Shown here: positions 2,042 through 63,697 of the stretch, one piece after another
How positions within the stretch are numbered: the stretch's first letter is position 1
How the letters are laid out: every line of letters begins with the position of its first letter
DNA from: Acidobacteria bacterium SCN 69-37
Lineage (GTDB): Bacteria; Acidobacteriota; Vicinamibacteria; Vicinamibacterales; SCN-69-37
Assembly: GCA_001724025.1 (NCBI GenBank)
Contig: MEDJ01000003.1
Coordinates: 1 to 64,000 of the forward strand
Length of the DNA stretch: 64,000 bases
Direction of reading: 5' to 3'
Translations under genes and position numbers: made by a program
Notes under the pieces: model-generated
What the model saw: only the letters and a program-made list of their open reading frames with translations
What the model was told of the DNA's origin: nothing
Database searches by the model: none

Positions 2042-3415
2042 ATGATCTCCGTCATCGACCACATCCAGACCAGCCGCGACCGCTATCTGGCCGAACTCGG
2101 CCAGTTCCTCGCCATCCCATCGATCAGCGCCCTGCCCGCCCATGCCGGCGACGTGCGTCGTTGCGCTGAGTGGCTCGGCGAAGAGATGCGCCGCATCGGC
2201 CTCGAGAACGTCGCGCTGATCGAGACGCCGGGCAATCCGGTCGTGTATGCCGACTGGCTGCACGCGGCCGACGCGCCCACGATCCTGTTCTACGGCCACT
2301 ACGATGTGCAGCCGGTCGACCCCGTCGATTTGTGGGAATCGCCGCCGTTCGACGCCACCGTGCGCGACGGCGAGATCTACGCGCGCGGCGCGGCCGACGA
2401 CAAGGGCCAGGTGTTCATGCACCTGAAGGCGATCGAGGCGTTCCTGAAGCAGACGGCGCGGCTGCCCGTGAACATCAAGCTGATCATCGAAGGCGAAGAA
2501 GAGGTCGGGTCGGCGCACCTCGATGATTTCGTGCGCGCGCAGAAGGATCGGCTCGCGGCCGACGTGGTCGTCATCTCCGATTCGGCGATGTTCGATCGCG
2601 GCGTGCCGTCGATCTGCTACGCGCTGCGCGGGCTCGCGTATTTCCAGATCGACGTGCGCGGCACGACGAGCGACCTGCACTCGGGCGTGTTCGGCGGCGC
2701 CGTGGCGAACCCCGCGATGGTGCTCGCGCAGATGCTCGCGCAGATGAAGGACAAGGGCGGGCGCATCAGGATTCCCGGGTTCTACGACGACGTGCTGCCG
2801 CTGTCGGAGGAGGAACGGAAGGCGTGGCAGGCACTGCCGTTCAACGAGAAGAAGTACCGGAAGGACCTCGGCGCGCCGAAGCTGGCGGGCGAGTCGGAGT
2901 ACAGCGTGCTCGAGCGCGTGTGGGCGCGGCCGACGTTCGAAGTGAACGGCCTGAACAGCGGCTTCACGGGTGACGGGGCCAAGACCGTCATTCCGGCCAC
3001 GGCCATGGCGAAGGTGAGCATGCGGCTCGTGCCGAACCAGGATCCGGACCGCGTTGCCGAGCTGTTCGAGGCACACGTGCGCAAGGTGGCGCCGAAGACC
3101 GTGACGGTCACGGTGACGCGGATGCACGGCGGCAAGCCGTGGATCACGAGCTACGACAACAGGTTCGTACAGGCGGCCGGTCGGGCGATTGAGCAGGGAT
3201 TCGGCAAATCGCCGGTCTTTTGTCGCGAAGGTGGATCCATTCCTGTCGTCTCGACGTTCCAGGAGCAGCTTGGCGTGCCGGCCGTGCTCTTCGGGGTCGG
3301 GCTGCCCGACGAGAATGCGCACGCGCCAAACGAGCGACTCGACCTCGAAAATTTTCACAACGGCATCGTGGCGTCCGCCTACCTCTATGACGAGATTGCA
3401 CGTGCCGGTCGGTAG
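2042..3415 (+). CDS. M20 family dipeptidase (cytosolic, CNDP/PepV-like)
   Basis: This 457-residue protein is predicted to hydrolyse dipeptides with two metal ions. Landmarks in order are FYGHYDVQ (first metal histidine, near residue 84), ARGAADDKGQ (bridging aspartate near 119), EGEEEVGS (catalytic Glu pair near 150), a DSAMF metal aspartate near 179, SDLHSGVFGG (dimerisation-domain histidine near 213) and the final metal histidine in ENAHAPNERL near 425. There is no signal peptide, so it should be cytosolic and could finish the digestion begun by the exported M28 enzyme upstream. The ATG at 2042 is preceded by a purine-rich GAAAGAGA. An in-frame ATG at 2000 would add 14 residues that look unlike the family. 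Family assignment is secure; the exact substrate is not. Confidence 0.9.
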   Translation: MISVIDHIQTSRDRYLAELGQFLAIPSISALPAHAGDVRRCAEWLGEEMRRIGLENVALIETPGNPVVYADWLHAADAPTILFYGHYDVQPVDPVDLWESPPFDATVRDGEIYARGAADDKGQVFMHLKAIEAFLKQTARLPVNIKLIIEGEEEVGSAHLDDFVRAQKDRLAADVVVISDSAMFDRGVPSICYALRGLAYFQIDVRGTTSDLHSGVFGGAVANPAMVLAQMLAQMKDKGGRIRIPGFYDDVLPLSEEERKAWQALPFNEKKYRKDLGAPKLAGESEYSVLERVWARPTFEVNGLNSGFTGDGAKTVIPATAMAKVSMRLVPNQDPDRVAELFEAHVRKVAPKTVTVTVTRMHGGKPWITSYDNRFVQAAGRAIEQGFGKSPVFCREGGSIPVVSTFQEQLGVPAVLFGVGLPDENAHAPNERLDLENFHNGIVASAYLYDEIARAGR

Positions 3416-3595
3416 GATGGTCACTTTCCCGAGGCATTGACGCGAAAGTCGTGACGATTGTGTGCGGCGGGGGACGGATTTGAAACGCGCGTGCCAATTC
3501 TGGTGCGCGTCGCGCCGGAGCTTCGCAATCGCGCGGCGCGATCATTTCCTGCCGACCCTCGATCCGATGACGGATCGGTGCGCGGTGGGCCGCCG

Positions 3596-3611
3596 TGGCA
3601 TGTAACCTGCA
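3596..3611 (+). promoter_or_regulatory. Sigma-54-type promoter ahead of first MASE1-GGDEF gene
   Basis: TGGCATGTAACCTGCA carries the invariant GG and GC of -24/-12 promoters with the required ten-base spacing, and lies 25 bases before the ATG at 3636. The sixth base departs from consensus (T for C) and the -12 half is CTGC rather than TTGC. A near-identical site occurs at the same distance from the next gene, which supports it. Confidence 0.5.
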
Positions 3612-3635
3612 GCCCGTGGGGCCCGGAATCTCGTA

Positions 3636-5075
3636 ATGTCCGCGTCTCTCGAGCCCCTCCGCGCCACCATCGTCCGACGCCCTCGTCTCTGCCTGCTGCT
3701 CTTCGCGCTGTACGTGGCCACCGGCGTGGCTGGCCTCAGCATCGGCCATGCACCGGCCGGCACCACGCTGATCTGGCTGCCGTCGGGCATTGCCCTCGGC
3801 GCGCTGTTGATTTTCGGCTACGCGATCTGGCCGGTCATCTTCACGGCCGCGATCCTCGTTCTGCTGCTGGCCGGTGCACCGGCGCCGGCCGTCTTCATGC
3901 TGGCCGCCGGACACACGGGCGAGGCGCTGCTGGCGGCGTACCTGGTGAACCGGTACGCCGACGGCCGGCACGCGTTGAGGAACTCGCGCAACAGCTTCCG
4001 GTTCACCGGCATGCTGCTGCTGGCGGCCGTGGCTGCCGGTGCGACGGTCAACGCCCTGACCGTCACCGTCACGGGCATGGCGCCGGCCACGGCCTATGGC
4101 GATGCGTGGCTGGCCCTCTGCCTCGGCAGCGTCGTCGGGATGCTGCTGGCCGCACCGCCCATCGTGCTCGTGAGCCAGGGAACGGTGATCTGGAAGGTTG
4201 GCCGCACCATCGAGACCATCGGCATGCTGTTCGCCGTGGCGATGACGGGCCTGCTGACCTTCTTCCATTTTCCCGTCGAACTGCGCGGCTACCCGAAGGA
4301 ACTGCTGTGCATGCCCGTGCTCCTGTGGGCCGCGTTCCGGCTCGGGCAGCGCGCGTCCGCCGTGGCCGTCATCGTCGTCGCGGCGTTTGCCGTGGCGGGG
4401 ACGCTGCTCGGGTACGGGCCGTTCGTGCGCCGTACGCCGTTCGACTCGCTGGTGATCGTGCAGTTGTTCGTGGCCTCGCTCGCGGTGATGACCACGGCGC
4501 TGGCCGCGCTGTCGGCCGATTACGAGGTGGCCGAGCGGCAGCTCGTGGAACTGGCCGTGACCGATCCGCTCACGGGGCTGGCGAACTACAGGCGGCTGCT
4601 CGAGGTGATGGCCGTCGAGGTCGCGCGCGCCGATCGACACGGCCGCCAGTTCGCCGTCGTGTTCTTCGACATGGACGGACTCAAGCGCATCAACGACGAA
4701 CTCGGCCACCTGACGGGCAGCCGTGCCGTCTGCCGGCTGGCCGCGACGCTCGGCGCGGCCCTGCGCACGACGGACACGGCGGCGCGTTACGGCGGCGACG
4801 AGTTCGTTGTCGTGCTGTCGGACACCGATTATCAGGGCGCCCGGCTCGTTGTCGAGCGCACGCACGAGCGGCTGGCCGAGGACCCGGACGTGCCGACGCT
4901 GTCGGTAAGCGCTGGCATTGCCGTATACCCCATCGATGGTCATACGCCGACGACGGTGCTGGCCGCGGCCGACAGGGCGCTGTACGCGAACAAGGCCGAA
5001 CGGGCGCTGGCGCGGCGTCGGGCCGCCGTGGACATCCGGGACGCCACGGGTCTCGTTGACACGGTTCGACGGTAA
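3636..5075 (+). CDS. MASE1-domain diguanylate cyclase (paralogue 1)
   Basis: This 479-residue inner-membrane protein is predicted to make cyclic di-GMP from two GTP. Residues 1-290 hold about eight hydrophobic segments typical of the MASE1 sensor, including the TTLIWLPSGIALG motif. A GGDEF domain follows (DPLTGLANYRRL, DMDGLKRINDELGH, YGGDEF near residue 386). The inhibitory I-site is intact: RTTD sits five residues before GGDEF, so product feedback is expected. No EAL or PilZ domain is attached. The next gene, 5187-6611, is a paralogue with the same layout and a matching promoter, so the pair probably arose by tandem duplication. The signal sensed by MASE1 domains is generally unknown. Confidence 0.9.
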   Translation: MSASLEPLRATIVRRPRLCLLLFALYVATGVAGLSIGHAPAGTTLIWLPSGIALGALLIFGYAIWPVIFTAAILVLLLAGAPAPAVFMLAAGHTGEALLAAYLVNRYADGRHALRNSRNSFRFTGMLLLAAVAAGATVNALTVTVTGMAPATAYGDAWLALCLGSVVGMLLAAPPIVLVSQGTVIWKVGRTIETIGMLFAVAMTGLLTFFHFPVELRGYPKELLCMPVLLWAAFRLGQRASAVAVIVVAAFAVAGTLLGYGPFVRRTPFDSLVIVQLFVASLAVMTTALAALSADYEVAERQLVELAVTDPLTGLANYRRLLEVMAVEVARADRHGRQFAVVFFDMDGLKRINDELGHLTGSRAVCRLAATLGAALRTTDTAARYGGDEFVVVLSDTDYQGARLVVERTHERLAEDPDVPTLSVSAGIAVYPIDGHTPTTVLAAADRALYANKAERALARRRAAVDIRDATGLVDTVRR

Positions 5076-5147
5076 GAACGGGGTGCCCCCGACCCGGTCC
5101 TGATTGCCGCAGGCGATCCGGCCGGCCGTGACATGGCGTGAGGTGCG

Positions 5148-5163
5148 TGGCACGCGACCTGCA
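5148..5163 (+). promoter_or_regulatory. Sigma-54-type promoter ahead of second MASE1-GGDEF gene
   Basis: TGGCACGCGACCTGCA matches the -24 box (TGGCACG) exactly, keeps GG-N10-GC, and ends 24 bases before the ATG at 5187. It shares the ACCTGCA core and the distance to the start codon with the site at 3596-3611. Confidence 0.55.
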
Positions 5164-5186
5164 CTGGCGACGGGCCAGGTCTGCCG

Positions 5187-6611
5187 ATGGCTCTCGCACG
5201 CATTCAGCGCCCCGCCGCCCTCTTCGTCGTATTCCTCGGATACGTCGCGTTCGGCTGGCTCGGTCTCCTGCCTGGTGGCGCGCTCACCGACGACACGGTG
5301 GTCATCTGGCCCGCCAGCGGCCTGGCGCTCGCGGCCATGCTCATCCGCGGCCGCGCCGCCGTCTGGTCCGCCGTCCTGGCGGGTGCGGTGGCCATGATGC
5401 TGGCCGCCACGGGAAACGCCCTCTTCTCGCTCGCGATGGCGGCCGGCCTGACGCTCGAGGCGGTGATCGGGTCGGCGCTCGTCGATCGATTCGCCCGCGG
5501 CACCGCCGTCTTCCAGCGTCCCGAGACGATCTTCCGCCTCGTGATCATCGTCGCCGCTGCTGCGGCCCCCGTGACGGCGACGACGGCCGCGATGGCCGCG
5601 GTGCTCGTCGGCCCGGCGGCCTGGTCGGACGCCGCGTACCTGTGGATGACCTGGTGGCTGGCCAGTGTGGCCGGCACGCTCGTCGCGGCGCCCCTGGTGC
5701 TGCTGTGGACCACGCAGCCGATCGGGCGGGTGGGCATCATCGAGGCCCTCGAGGCGATCGTGCTGCTGGCCGCGCTCACGGTCGTATCGCTGGCCGTGTT
5801 CGCGGGCCGGTTCCCGACCGGCGTCCAGAACTATCCGCTCGAATTCCTGTGTGTGCCGTTCCTGTTGTGGGCCGCGTTCCGCGAGGGACGACGAACGGTC
5901 TCGCTGGCGGCCGCTGTCCTCTGCGGTGTGGCGGCGTGGGGCACGATGCGTGGGTACGGCCCGTTCGTGCGCGACAGCCGGGCCGAGGCGATCGTGCTCG
6001 TCCAGGCCTACGTCGCCGTGATGGGGACGATGGCGGCCGTCATCGCAGCGGTCGTGGCCGAGCAGCGGCGTGCGGAAGCGCAGCTGCGCGAGCTGGCGAC
6101 CACGGACCCGCTGACCGGACTGGCCAATTACCGGCGGCTGCTCGAGGTCCTGCGCACGGAGATTGCCCGATCGAATCGTACGGGCCGCGCGTTTGCCGTG
6201 CTGTTCCTGGACATGAACGGCCTGAAGGCGATCAACGACAGGTTCGGCCACCTGGTGGGCAGCCGCGCGCTGTGCCGGCTGGCGGACACGCTCACCAGAT
6301 CGTGCCGCGCGATCGACACGCCCGCGCGATTCGGGGGCGACGAGTTCGCCATCGTGTTGCCCGAGACGCCCGAGGCCGGCGGCTACGTGCTGCTGCGGCG
6401 GATCGCCGAGCGGCTCGCCGGGAGTGCGGATCAGCCGCCGGTGAGCGTCAGCGGCGGCGTGGCCGTGTTCCCGCGCGACGGTGCATCGCCGACGCAGCTG
6501 CTGCGCGCAGCCGATCGGGTCCTGTACGAATCGCGGACGCGCACGGGCGTCTCCGGCCGGCGCGGGGCGACCGAAGCCGACGCCGAGGCGCCGCGCCGCA
6601 CGGGCACGTAG
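5187..6611 (+). CDS. MASE1-domain diguanylate cyclase (paralogue 2)
   Basis: A 474-residue paralogue of the preceding gene. It has an N-terminal multi-spanning MASE1 region (VIWPASGLALAAM), then a GGDEF domain with DPLTGLANYRRL, DMNGLKAINDRFGH and FGGDEF near residue 382. The I-site RAID lies five residues before GGDEF, so both catalysis and product inhibition should be intact. The C-terminal 30 residues are Arg/Ala-rich and unlike paralogue 1. It has its own sigma-54-like promoter, so the two cyclases can be switched on together or separately by an NtrC-type activator. The membrane halves have diverged more than the GGDEF halves, which suggests different input signals. Confidence 0.9.
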   Translation: MALARIQRPAALFVVFLGYVAFGWLGLLPGGALTDDTVVIWPASGLALAAMLIRGRAAVWSAVLAGAVAMMLAATGNALFSLAMAAGLTLEAVIGSALVDRFARGTAVFQRPETIFRLVIIVAAAAAPVTATTAAMAAVLVGPAAWSDAAYLWMTWWLASVAGTLVAAPLVLLWTTQPIGRVGIIEALEAIVLLAALTVVSLAVFAGRFPTGVQNYPLEFLCVPFLLWAAFREGRRTVSLAAAVLCGVAAWGTMRGYGPFVRDSRAEAIVLVQAYVAVMGTMAAVIAAVVAEQRRAEAQLRELATTDPLTGLANYRRLLEVLRTEIARSNRTGRAFAVLFLDMNGLKAINDRFGHLVGSRALCRLADTLTRSCRAIDTPARFGGDEFAIVLPETPEAGGYVLLRRIAERLAGSADQPPVSVSGGVAVFPRDGASPTQLLRAADRVLYESRTRTGVSGRRGATEADAEAPRRTGT

Positions 6612-6674
6612 CGTCGATTCCCCGGCTCGTGAGCCGCAGCCGTCGTCGGGTGACGCTTGTCGTACCATGACGCG

Positions 6675-8210
6675 ATGGCTGAGCCTCTCCAGTTCGCCCG
6701 CACCCCCGACGGCCGCGATCTCGTCCTCCTGCCGGCCCTGGCCAACCGCCACGGCCTGATTACCGGCGCCACGGGCACGGGCAAGACCGTCACGCTGCAG
6801 GTCCTGGCCGAGCGCTTCTCCGCCATTGGCGTGCCCACGTTCATGGCCGACGTGAAGGGCGATCTCGCCGGCCTCGCCGCGGCCGGGGTATCGTCGCCCA
6901 AACTCGAACAGCGGCTGACCGAGCACGGGCTGTCGGTACCCGCCTTCGGCGCCAGTCCCGTGACGTTCTGGGACGTCTTCGGCGAAGCCGGCCACCCGGT
7001 GCGCGCCACGATCTCGGACATGGGGCCGCTCGTGCTGAGCCGGCTCTTCAACCTGAACGAGACGCAGCGCGGCGTTCTCGCGATCGTCTTCAAGATTGCC
7101 GACGACGCGGGGCTGCTCCTGCTCGACAGCCGGGATCTGCGCGCGATGCTGCAGTTCGTGGGCGACAACGCGAAGTCGTTCACGACCGAATACGGCAACA
7201 TCTCGGTGGCGTCCATCGGCGCGATCCAGCGCGCGCTGCTCGCCGTGGACGAACAGGGCGGCGACAGGTTCTTCGGCGAGCCGATGCTGAACATCGACGA
7301 TCTCATCCAGACCGAGGGCGCGGGCCGCGGCATGGTGAACGTCCTGGCCGCCGATCGCCTGATGCAGGCCCCGAAGGTCTACGCCAGCTTCCTGCTCTGG
7401 ATGCTGGCCGAGCTGTTCGAGCGCCTGCCCGAGGCCGGCGATCCCGAGAAGCCGCGCCTGGTCTTCTTCTTCGACGAAGCGCACCTGCTGTTCGATGGCG
7501 CGTCGGAGGCGCTCGTCGACAAGATCGAGCAGGTGGTGCGCCTGATCCGATCGAAGGGCGTCGGCGTGTACTTCGTCACGCAGAACCCGCTCGACGTGCC
7601 GGACAAAGTGCTGGCGCAGCTCGGCAACCGCGTGCAGCACGCGCTGCGGGCATTCACGCCGCGCGATCAGAAGGCCGTCAGGACCGCTGCCGATACGCTG
7701 CGATCGAATCCCGCGTTCGAGACGCGGCAGGCGATCACGGAACTCGGCGTCGGCGAGGCGCTCGTCTCGTGCCTCGATGCGAAGGGGACGCCGACGATTG
7801 TCGAACGCGCCTGGATCGACGCGCCGGCGTCGCGCATCGGTCCGATCCTGCCGGGCGAGCGTGCGGCTGTGATCGCGGGATCGCTCGTCCGCGGCCACTA
7901 CGAGACCGCCATAGACAGGGAATCGGCTTACGAGATCCTGAAAGCGCGCGCGGCCGCGTCGGCCGATGGCACGGCCACGGCAGCGCCGGCAGGGAAGGGG
8001 AAGTCGGCGCCGGCAACTCCGCCACCCGCGTCGGGGGGAGCGGCCGGCGGGGCGCTCACCGATCTGCTGTTCGGATCGACGGGCCCGCGCGGCGGACGAC
8101 GCGAGGGCGTGATCGAATCGGCCGCGCGCAGCGCGGCCCGCAGCCTCGGATCGGGTCTCGGCCGATCGATCCTGCGCGGCATGTTCGGATCGCTCCTCGG
8201 GAAGAAGTGA
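6675..8210 (+). CDS. HerA-like / DUF853 (YjgR-type) P-loop ATPase
   Basis: A 511-residue cytoplasmic ATPase of the HerA-FtsK superfamily. Walker A is GATGTGKT near residues 29-36. The VKGDLAGLA segment follows, then Walker [15 protein letters not shown] near 260-272 and a C-terminal sensor-like region ([15 protein letters not shown]). The C-terminal 100 residues are a low-complexity Ala/Gly/Pro linker followed by a basic glycine-rich tail ([18 protein letters not shown]) that is typical of DUF853 proteins. HerA proteins translocate DNA with the NurA nuclease in archaea, but the bacterial YjgR branch has no settled role and no nurA-like gene lies nearby. The ATG at 6675 is preferred over a TTG at 6657 because the protein then starts [13 protein letters not shown], as in the family. 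Confidence 0.85.
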
Positions 8211-8287
8211 TCGCGTGGGGCTGCGCCCCATTCCTTCGGCGGCCTCGTTCCGGTAGGCTGATCGCTATCCGCACGAGGAGCATGGTC

Positions 8288-28795: not shown

Positions 28796-29701
28796 ATGGG
28801 GGACGAACGCACCGACGAGACCTTCATCATCACCGAGATGCCGGCGCACGCACCCCCGACGCCGGTTCGGCGCGCGTACGTCGTCGTCGTGGCCGGTCAC
28901 GGCATGGGCGAGGTCTTCGCGCTCGATCGCACCCTGACGGTGGGCCGCGGTGACGACGCGGATGTGCGCGTCCCGGATACGGGCATTTCACGCCGGCACG
29001 CGCGATTCGTCGTCACCGGCGATCACGTGATCGTCGAGGATCTGGGATCGACGAACGGCACGTTCGTCAATGGTCGTCGCGTGAGCGGCCAGAGCATCCT
29101 GGCCGATGGTGACAGACTCCAGTTCGGCACGTTAACGGTCCTGCGGTTCGAGGCCCGGGGTGAGGCCGACGAAGCGTTCCAGCGCCGGATGTTCGAGTCG
29201 GCCTCGCGTGATGCGCTGACCGGCACGCTCAACACACGCTATTTCGTGGAACGCCTCGATGCCGAGGTCGCACACGCCTCGCGTCACGGCGCGCACCTGT
29301 CGCTGCTCCTGTTCGACATCGACGCGTTCAAGGCGGTCAACGATACGTACGGACATCCGGCCGGCGACCGCGTGCTGTGTGGCGTGGCAGCCGTCGCCGC
29401 GGCAACAGTGCAGCCCGATGGCGTGCTGGGCCGCTACGGCGGCGACGAGTTCGCCGTCATCGTCAGGTCGGCCGGCGCGTCGGCGGCGGTCGAGCTGGCG
29501 GAACGCCTGCGCGAGGCGATCGCGACGGAGCCGTTCGACGCGAACGAGACGACCGTATCGGTGACGGTCAGCGTCGGCGTCGCGTCGATCGGACCGGCGC
29601 GGACGCTGACGGGCGCCGCGCTCATCGCCCTCGCCGACGAGGCGCTCTATCGCGCGAAGCGCGGTGGCCGCAATCGCGTCGAGGTGGACGGGATCCCCTG
29701 A
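28796..29701 (+). CDS. FHA-domain diguanylate cyclase
   Basis: A 301-residue cytoplasmic protein. An FHA domain at about 28-115 (LTVGRGDDADVRV, ISRRHARF, DLGSTNGTFVNG) would bind a phosphothreonine peptide. The GGDEF domain follows (SRDALTGTLNTRYF, FDIDAFKAVNDTYGH, YGGDEF near 219). The position five residues before GGDEF lacks RxxD, so the inhibitory I-site is absent, unlike the two MASE1 cyclases in this window. FHA-GGDEF fusions link Ser/Thr kinase signalling to cyclic di-GMP. No kinase gene is adjacent. Monocistronic as far as can be seen. Confidence 0.9.
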   Translation: MGDERTDETFIITEMPAHAPPTPVRRAYVVVVAGHGMGEVFALDRTLTVGRGDDADVRVPDTGISRRHARFVVTGDHVIVEDLGSTNGTFVNGRRVSGQSILADGDRLQFGTLTVLRFEARGEADEAFQRRMFESASRDALTGTLNTRYFVERLDAEVAHASRHGAHLSLLLFDIDAFKAVNDTYGHPAGDRVLCGVAAVAAATVQPDGVLGRYGGDEFAVIVRSAGASAAVELAERLREAIATEPFDANETTVSVTVSVGVASIGPARTLTGAALIALADEALYRAKRGGRNRVEVDGIP

Positions 29702-62260: not shown

Positions 62261-63697
62261 ATGTCCGACACCCAGGTCACCGTTCTCATCATCGACGACG
62301 AGGAAATCATCCGTGAGGCGCTCGAGGCGCTGCTCACGGCCGACGGCTATGGCGTGCGCACCGCCGCGACGGCGGCCGAGGGCTTGGCCGGGCTCGGGCA
62401 GGCGCCTGTCGACGTCGACGTCGTCCTGCTCGACCTGATGCTGCCGGATCGCAACGGCCTGGACGTGCTCGACGACATCAGGCGCGTCGACGAGGAACTG
62501 CCGGTCGTGATGATCACCGCGTTCGGCACCATCGAGAGTGCGATTGCCGCGACGAAGCAGGGCGCATTCCACTACTTCACGAAGCCGTTCAAGAACGACG
62601 ACGTCCTGGTCGTGCTGCGCAACGCGGTGGAGCGGCGTCGCCTGGTGCGCGAGAATCGCGCGCTGCGCGATCAGTTGCTGTCCGACTCGCACCGCTTCGA
62701 TGATCTGATCGGCGGCAGCCGTCCCATCCGCGCCGTGTACGACCTGATCGCCAGGGCGGCGCCGAGCCGCGCCACGGTCCTGATCCAGGGCGAGAGCGGC
62801 ACGGGCAAGGAACTGGTGGCGCGCGCGTTCCATCGTCGATCGGCGCGTGCGGACAAGCCGTTCGTCACGGTCAATTCCGGCAACCTGCCGCCCGATCTGC
62901 TCGAGTCGAACCTGTTCGGGCACGTGAAGGGCGCGTTCACCGGTGCCGTGTTCCCGAAGAAGGGGCTGTTCGAGATTGCCGACAAGGGGACGATCTTCTT
63001 CGACGAGATCGGCAACGTGCCGCTCGATACGCAGGCCAAGCTGCTGCGCGTCATCCAGGAACGCGAGTTCATGCGGCTCGGCGGCGTCGACACGATCAAG
63101 GTGGACGTGCGGATCATCGCGGCCACCAACGCGGATCTGAAGGCGCTCGTGAAGGAGGGCCGGTTCCGCGAGGATCTGTTCTATCGCCTGAACGTCATCC
63201 TCGTCCCGCTGCCGCCGCTGCGCGATCGCAAGGACGACATCTCGCTGCTGGTGCAGCATTTCCTCGACAAGTTCACCGAGGAGAGCCGCAAGCTGTCGAT
63301 GATTGTGACGCCTGAGGCGATGGACCGCCTGATGGCGTATGACTGGCCCGGCAACATCCGCGAACTGGAGAACGTGATCGAACGTGCGGTCGTGTTGTGC
63401 GGCGAGCGGGAGATCGACGTCGACCTGATTCCGGATCACGTGGGCGCCGGCGAGGTCGTCGAGGTGCCTGATGTGGTCATTCCGGCTGACGGGATCCACT
63501 TCCGCGAGGTGATGATCGGGCACGAGCGTCGCTACATCGAGGCCGCGCTCGAGGCTGCCGGCGGCGTCCAGAAGCGCGCCGCCGAACTCCTGCACATCAA
63601 GGCCACCACGCTCAACGAGATGATCAAGCGCTACGACATCCTGCCGCGGCGCCGGAAAACCGGCGACACGGACGGCGGCGGCGACGAGATCGACTGA
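62261..63697 (+). CDS. NtrC-family sigma-54-dependent response regulator
   Basis: A 478-residue regulator. The receiver domain ([20 protein letters not shown]; phosphorylated Asp in VVLLDLMLP; Lys in HYFTKPF) is followed by the AAA+ domain with Walker A GESGTGKE, the sigma-54-contacting GAFTGA loop and Walker [11 protein letters not shown]. The C-terminal Fis-type helix-turn-helix is near [33 protein letters not shown] at 62261 is preferred over GTG at 62240. It can activate only sigma-54 promoters, and two candidate sites in this window lie upstream of the MASE1-GGDEF genes. It forms an operon with the kinase. Confidence 0.94.

Follow-up and report, generated by a model that had tools for sequence, protein, structure and literature searches.

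Predicted sigma-54-type promoters conserved before tandem MASE1 diguanylate cyclase genes of an Acidobacteriota bacterium, with a flagellar regulator as candidate activator

Two tandem genes encoding MASE1-GGDEF proteins, predicted diguanylate cyclases, are each preceded by a sigma-54-type −24/−12 site in the 64,000-nucleotide stretch of Acidobacteria bacterium SCN 69-37 DNA that was analysed (contig MEDJ01000003.1, positions 1 to 64,000; hereafter, the window). We regard both sites as very probably genuine sigma-54 promoters, their use in vivo and their start points being predicted, because of their position and their conservation in related genomes and not because of any genome scan. Among the sigma-54 activators encoded in the genome, the best candidate on present evidence is the NtrC-type regulator of the flagellar gene cluster, an assignment that we make tentatively, its chances appearing somewhat short of even.

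Two cyclase genes and their promoter sites

Gene 1 (3636..5075, plus strand; 479 residues) and gene 2 (5187..6611, plus strand; 474 residues) both exceeded the curated cut-offs in profile searches for MASE1 (PF05231; E-values, 8.4e-33 and 1.8e-36, respectively) and GGDEF (PF00990; 1.4e-35 and 4.2e-34), whereas neither PAS nor EAL domains were found by profile search in either protein. Alignment of the two proteins shows that the GGDEF motif is intact in both, and in that of gene 1 an RxxD motif was seen by eye five residues ahead of it. By their domains, both genes thus encode MASE1 diguanylate cyclases, as stated in the first-pass annotation of the window, and are predicted to synthesize cyclic di-GMP (c-di-GMP). 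Gene 2 is an old paralogue of gene 1; the proteins are 44% identical overall, with 103/288 identical residues (36%) in the MASE1 part and 92/161 (57%) in the GGDEF part.

The site of gene 1, TGGCATGTAACCTGCA (3596..3611, plus strand), scores 10/12 against the published sigma-54 consensus, TGGCACG-N4-TTGC(T/A) (PMC9765219), and is kept before the orthologous starts. That of gene 2, TGGCACGCGACCTGCA (5148..5163, plus strand), scores 11/12 and is also found before gene 2 of the relative G001. Both are of the TGGCAY type, and the exact GG-N10-GC spacing reported in the first-pass annotation was confirmed at both genes, as was its count of the distance to the start codon, with 24 (gene 1) and 23 (gene 2) bases between the site end and the ATG, the A of which is base 25 and 24 past the site. 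At gene 1, an in-frame stop inside the promoter site bars any start farther upstream. Assuming transcription to begin 12 nucleotides 3' of the C of the GC element, the 5' leaders would be ~14 nucleotides for gene 1 (3622..3635, plus strand) and ~13 nucleotides for gene 2 (5174..5186, plus strand), and 5–16 nucleotides over all six sites of this kind found in this genome and its relatives. No Shine-Dalgarno-like 4-mer occurs within 20 bases ahead of the gene 1 start, and none precedes the start of any of the six cyclase genes with a site, compared with 114/288 called genes, a weak comparison in view of the homology of the six. Near-leaderless translation of the cyclase messenger RNAs is possible.

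Conservation of the sites in related genomes

The family set consisted of 14 genomes including this one (G000), in which presence of a cyclase was defined as a match of E 1e-60 or better. By this definition, three of the 13 relatives (G001, G003, and G005) have cyclase orthologues, and in the four genomes together, six of the seven cyclase genes keep a GG-N10-GC site located 15–26 nucleotides before the start and scoring 9–11/12 (9–10/12 in the relatives). In G001 both genes are present and each is preceded by a site, gene 2 apparently being divided between two contigs; G003 has a single gene with a site; and in G005, where the two cyclase genes overlap (ATGA), a site precedes the first, and the 120 bases ahead of the second contain none of at least 7/12. 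Positions G2, G3, A5, A10, C11, T13, G14, C15, and A16 are invariant across all six sites, A10 and C11 not being part of the sigma-54 consensus. The perfect site consensus, a pattern derived from the sites themselves, has five matches in the four genomes, all before these cyclases, and the sixth cyclase site differs from it by one mismatch. As judged by eye, the 16-mer is the sole well-conserved block in the aligned non-coding upstream DNA. The earlier view that the promoters have been kept while the membrane segments diverged hence applies only to the 16-mer core; the remaining upstream DNA has itself diverged, also by eye.

The gene 1 orthologues share 55–63% protein identity. Since each gene type is closer across the genomes than to its paralogue, the duplication probably predates the split of these genomes. 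Among more distant MASE1-GGDEF relatives (L040, L041, L042, L081, and L083), for which the starts were estimated from alignments, no site of at least 8/12 was detected except for one of 8/12 at L040.

Chance expectation

To judge the sites against their background, we used a sample of 517,503 bases of the genome, partly chosen around activator, GGDEF, and PilZ genes, with genes called by a simple script. GG-N10-GC alone occurs 11,473 times in the 1,034,286 sampled strand-positions (one per 90) and at least once within 80 bases upstream of 219/414 called genes; it is so common in this genome that the spacing by itself is no evidence. The first-pass annotation had named an abundance of equally good matches in the genome as grounds for doubt, and such an abundance exists for single sites, as described below, but not before genes: a site of at least 10/12 lies within 80 bases upstream of only six of the 414 genes, two of which are these cyclases. 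Dinucleotide-shuffled versions of the 100-nucleotide upstream regions contained a site that scored at least as high, and ended no more than 40 nucleotides from the start, in 14 (gene 1) and 2 (gene 2) of 20,000 trials, and in 321 (G001 gene 1), 12 (G001 gene 2), 173 (G003), and 44 (G005 gene 1) of 20,000 for the relatives; the six results are interdependent, as the promoters are homologous. With up to two mismatches, TGGCAYGNNACCTGCA matched these two sites alone in the 64 kb, yet 25/100 shuffles yielded at least two matches. Finally, a matrix derived solely from eight flagellar sites of these genomes, with the cyclase sites excluded, placed the cyclase upstream regions 6th and 10th among 436 genes, the flagellar cluster being omitted. 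Together with the site retained at six of seven genes and the presence of RpoN, this ranking leaves the proposal of sigma-54-type promoters well supported.

Sigma-54 machinery and flagellar control sites

The genome has one match to the RpoN DNA-binding domain (E-value, 2.6e-64) and 28 matches to the sigma-54 activator domain, 23 of them strong. One activator, C18 (G000:C18), has the REC-AAA-Fis architecture of the NtrC type and is divergent from genes matching Flg_bb_rod, Flg_bbr_C, and FliE and from fliF; the first rod gene beside it is presumably flgB, as we judge from its place. Regulators of RpoN-dependent flagellar regulons include FlbD; for the C18 regulator itself, none of the 25 top matches listed exceeds the cut-off of a named equivalog. 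A sigma-54-like site precedes both the gene of this regulator and the first flagellar rod gene in five genomes, namely, the four with cyclases and G007 (the rod gene of G001 scores 20.6 for Flg_bb_rod, just below the cut-off of 20.7, and that of G007 was named by eye). These sites form, by eye, the main conserved blocks of their intergenic region. A gene for a FliA/WhiG-type sigma factor (TIGR02479; 188.6 bits, just below the cut-off of 189.6) likewise has a site in this genome and in 6/6 relatives examined. Given the conservation of the flagellar and sigma-gene sites, the same criteria can therefore read sigma-54-like sites in these genomes. The FliA/WhiG-type gene was rejected as support for a flagella-only regulon, since three genomes in which fliF was not matched have it as well.

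Outside the flagellar cluster, the best flagellar-type site in the 436-gene sample precedes a PilZ gene (L339:6044-6679, G000:C13); this site, TGGCATTCCTCTTGCC (L175:1316-1331), agrees with the flgB site at 14 of 16 bases (positions 2–15), and the stretch had been fetched because of the site. Seven PilZ loci are present, of which the site scan applied to the other GGDEF genes (see below) covered four, three having been dropped by a GC filter. Another PilZ gene with a good site (C22) was set aside, because its best match in the six relatives searched is 36% and no conservation footprint is possible.

A further sigma-54-like site was seen before a short frame with one hydrophobic stretch in this genome (G000:C13:75689; L229:1501) and in G001 (G001:C145:27824; L234:1501), with similar flanks. 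By eye, the frame is possibly a gene for a small membrane peptide.

Candidate activators

None of the activator-domain matches of this genome is close to the cyclases; their contig carries just one, at 62705 in the window. We compared all 23 strong activators with the 86 domain matches of six relatives, and five of them (C11, C12, C18, and the two of a C23 pair) match the cyclase distribution among these seven genomes, in that a reciprocal best match exists in each of G001, G003, and G005 but is absent from G002, G004, and G006. The C11 activator adjoins, by eye, glutamate synthase-like and PII-like genes. The C23 pair (G000:C23 ~77485-80214; L207:9485-12214) consists of two divergent short AAA activators with GSFTGA in the loop and, by eye, no REC domain, located inside a polysaccharide export locus whose genes match Poly_export and Wzz/GNVR. 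As for C18, fliF was found in five of the 14 family genomes, and the cyclases occur in four of these five and in none of the nine others (Fisher test, 0.005, uncorrected for kinship). With the flgB-like site before the C13 PilZ gene, this makes a flagellar c-di-GMP regulon our leading, if tentative, guess.

Two further genes were noted in the course of this survey. The activator gene at 62261-63697 in the window (domain match, G000:C3:62705-63199) has a reciprocal best match in every one of the six relatives and adjoins a gene for a 947-residue protein and a run of genes that, by eye, resemble those of glycosyltransferases. Close to the C12 activator is a gene for a single-domain response regulator (G000:C12:34817; L164:1022-1444) with an almost sigma-54-like site that lacks the GC, TGGCACGCACGTTGAA.

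Proposed mechanism and alternatives

In the mechanism that we propose, each cyclase gene would be transcribed from its own −24/−12 promoter by RNA polymerase carrying RpoN (sigma-54), giving a messenger RNA with a very short leader. Sigma-54 promoters in general need an AAA+ activator, and both membrane-bound cyclases would therefore be made only while that activator is on; we infer the dependence of c-di-GMP output on the activator from the sigma-54 promoters. The activator would be the flagellar REC-AAA-Fis regulator, which itself has a sigma-54-like promoter, so that the motility programme would supply its own c-di-GMP input, while membrane signals received through MASE1 would set the activity of the cyclases. 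In its full form, in which the flagellar regulator uses sigma-54 to turn on, together with the flagellum, a c-di-GMP module made up of the MASE1 cyclase pair and one or more PilZ receptors, the cyclases being made from near-leaderless transcripts, the proposal is a speculative one and, taken as a whole, rather improbable. If true, the motility programme would install its own brake or surface-response system, and with a flagellar activator one programme would make both motility and the signal that commonly ends motility. Whichever activator operates, two of the seven GGDEF genes of the genome should, on this prediction, be silent in the absence of an active sigma-54 activator, which provides a testable piece of c-di-GMP wiring in this lineage, and the conserved cyclase and flagellar sites provide an initial sigma-54 promoter matrix for the family.

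Several observations weigh against sigma-54 control of the cyclases by the flagellar regulator. The sampled strand-positions contain 20 sites that have both the GG and the GC and score 10/12 or better, or ~170 when extrapolated to the genome. With up to one mismatch, the core consensus has 16 matches in the whole genome versus 33 for the reversed control, showing no enrichment, and 36 versus 66 in the four genomes; bare genome pattern scans were rejected as evidence, given the lack of excess over the reversed controls. On the flagellar matrix, the six cyclase sites score 5.2–11.9, versus 17.6–20.2 for the flagellar sites from which it was built, and their −12 element is CTGC or ATGC, compared with TTGC in the flagellar sites. 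The four activators other than C18 (C11, C12, and the C23 pair) fit the cyclase distribution equally. One family genome with fliF (G007) has no cyclases, and neither do 12 further fliF-containing genomes (of 46 in the wider order) have close cyclase orthologues, the best E-value per genome being 2.6e-32 or worse; moreover, the four cyclase genomes may be one clade, so that the co-occurrence with fliF may be a single event. Also to be counted here is that we found no convincing enhancer-like element common to the cyclase upstream regions, or to the cyclase and flagellar regions.

The enhancer search used expectation-maximization at three widths, palindromic or not. For the six cyclase upstream regions, the results were within those of 12 shuffles in five settings, and a plain 18-mer just exceeded the shuffles (43.5 versus a null maximum of 42.7, the null runs having fewer starts). 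All three palindrome widths beat all eight shuffles, both for the four flagellar regions by themselves and for these combined with the cyclase regions, but the null runs were again optimised less far and the flagellar regions are mutually related. The three flagellar-only palindromes were therefore scored in the cyclase regions, with 386 other gene starts as the background. One gave p-values of 0.008 (G003) and 0.010 (G005) and of 0.085, 0.48, 0.75, and 0.82 in the other four regions; the G003 match sits, by eye, at the end of the peptidase gene. The other two gave 0.109 or worse in all six regions. In H. pylori and C. jejuni, the flagellar activators dispense with an enhancer site (PMC3930126). 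The first-pass annotation's expectation that one NtrC-type regulator is likely to activate both genes thus has no support from a shared element, and five of the 23 strong activators fit the cyclase distribution.

The sites could be sigma-54 promoters served by another activator with the same distribution, chiefly the C23 pair, in which case the cyclases would serve matrix production and not motility. Since c-di-GMP commonly drives polysaccharide synthesis, the place of this pair beside polysaccharide export genes fits such a role, as do its reciprocal best matches in the three cyclase-bearing relatives and its identity of at most 46% in G002, G004, and G006; however, the pair lies on a different contig from the cyclases, and the scan that detected the flagellar regulator's site showed no sigma-54-like site consistently present before the pair across the genomes. 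We consider this explanation unlikely, albeit one to be reckoned with. A different explanation would make the conserved 16-mer the operator of some other regulator, resembling a −24/−12 element by its sequence, with transcription from a sigma-70-type promoter or by read-through. The invariance of A10 and C11 and the moderate single-site scores agree with an operator, but the GG and GC, exactly ten bases apart in each of the six sites, are equally invariant, the position 15–26 nucleotides before the start suits a promoter better than an upstream operator, and a simple consensus scan of the plus strand at 3400-5260 showed no sigma-70-like promoter; an operator is thus quite improbable. Least probable is a chance resemblance without function in a window of 69% GC. 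The many equally good sites expected genome-wide and the reversed-pattern controls, commoner than the pattern itself, would suit it, but both position and core were kept at six of seven starts, protein identity being ~44% for the paralogues and 55–63% for the gene 1 orthologues.

Neighbouring genes and other GGDEF genes

The upstream neighbour of the cyclase pair is an M20 peptidase gene (2042..3415, plus strand; profile match), and similar sequence lies, by eye, ahead of the cyclase in G001 and G003. The downstream neighbour is a gene for a HerA-like ATPase (6675..8210, plus strand; profile match), with similar sequence, by eye, directly after the single cyclase gene of G003. An open frame of 1695 residues on the minus strand (window 3144-8231) spans both cyclases and is outside the gene calls of the script; it is probably an artefact of the high GC content.

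Seven GGDEF genes, including these two cyclases, are present in the genome. The third one of the window (29201-29677; frame of 316 residues) has no sigma-54-like site of at least 9/12 near the frame start. For the five other GGDEF genes (L181-L185), no match of at least 9/12 was found near the open-frame start, a weak test in which the frames are longer than the genes.

Comparison with known systems

The cyclase sites share with known sigma-54 promoters (PMC9765219) the GG-N10-GC arrangement and the TGGYAY and TGCA elements, in a genome encoding RpoN and many AAA+ activators. They differ in the CTGC or ATGC of the −12 element with its invariant AC ahead, and in the short distance of 15–26 nucleotides from the site to the start, which would leave leaders of ~5–16 nucleotides. 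A mutationally characterised sigma-54 site in the same source has the −12 element CTGCT, near the CTGCA of the cyclase sites (PMC9765219).

Cyclase genes have been connected with sigma-54 before: yeaJ and yhjK of E. coli are named in connection with a predicted sigma-54 promoter (PMC3162934). The present case likewise joins cyclase genes and a sigma-54 promoter, here with a MASE1 pair, conservation across genomes, and two promoters in tandem. Among the titles and abstract beginnings listed in searches of open-licence literature, none mentioned a MASE1 cyclase pair preceded by sigma-54 promoters. E. coli DgcE is a MASE1 cyclase, and its activator genes rdcA and rdcB belong to the FlhDC flagellar regulon (PMC6510439). 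DgcE resembles the proteins described here in combining MASE1 with GGDEF and is a precedent for a MASE1 cyclase tied to the motility programme, whereas here no PAS or EAL domain was found and the cyclase genes themselves would be tied to motility by being transcribed with sigma-54. RpoN-dependent flagellar regulons with regulators of the FlrC, FleR, or FlgR type are well described (PMC3930126, PMC13432727), and share with the present genome a REC-AAA regulator, flagellar genes, and sigma-54 promoters, membership of the cyclases being here that of candidates. A PilZ gene under flagellar regulators, flgZ, has also been described (PMC3913639). Altogether, the cyclase promoter pair is a new and well-conserved case of already described types, namely, sigma-54-linked cyclases and sigma-54-dependent flagellar regulons.

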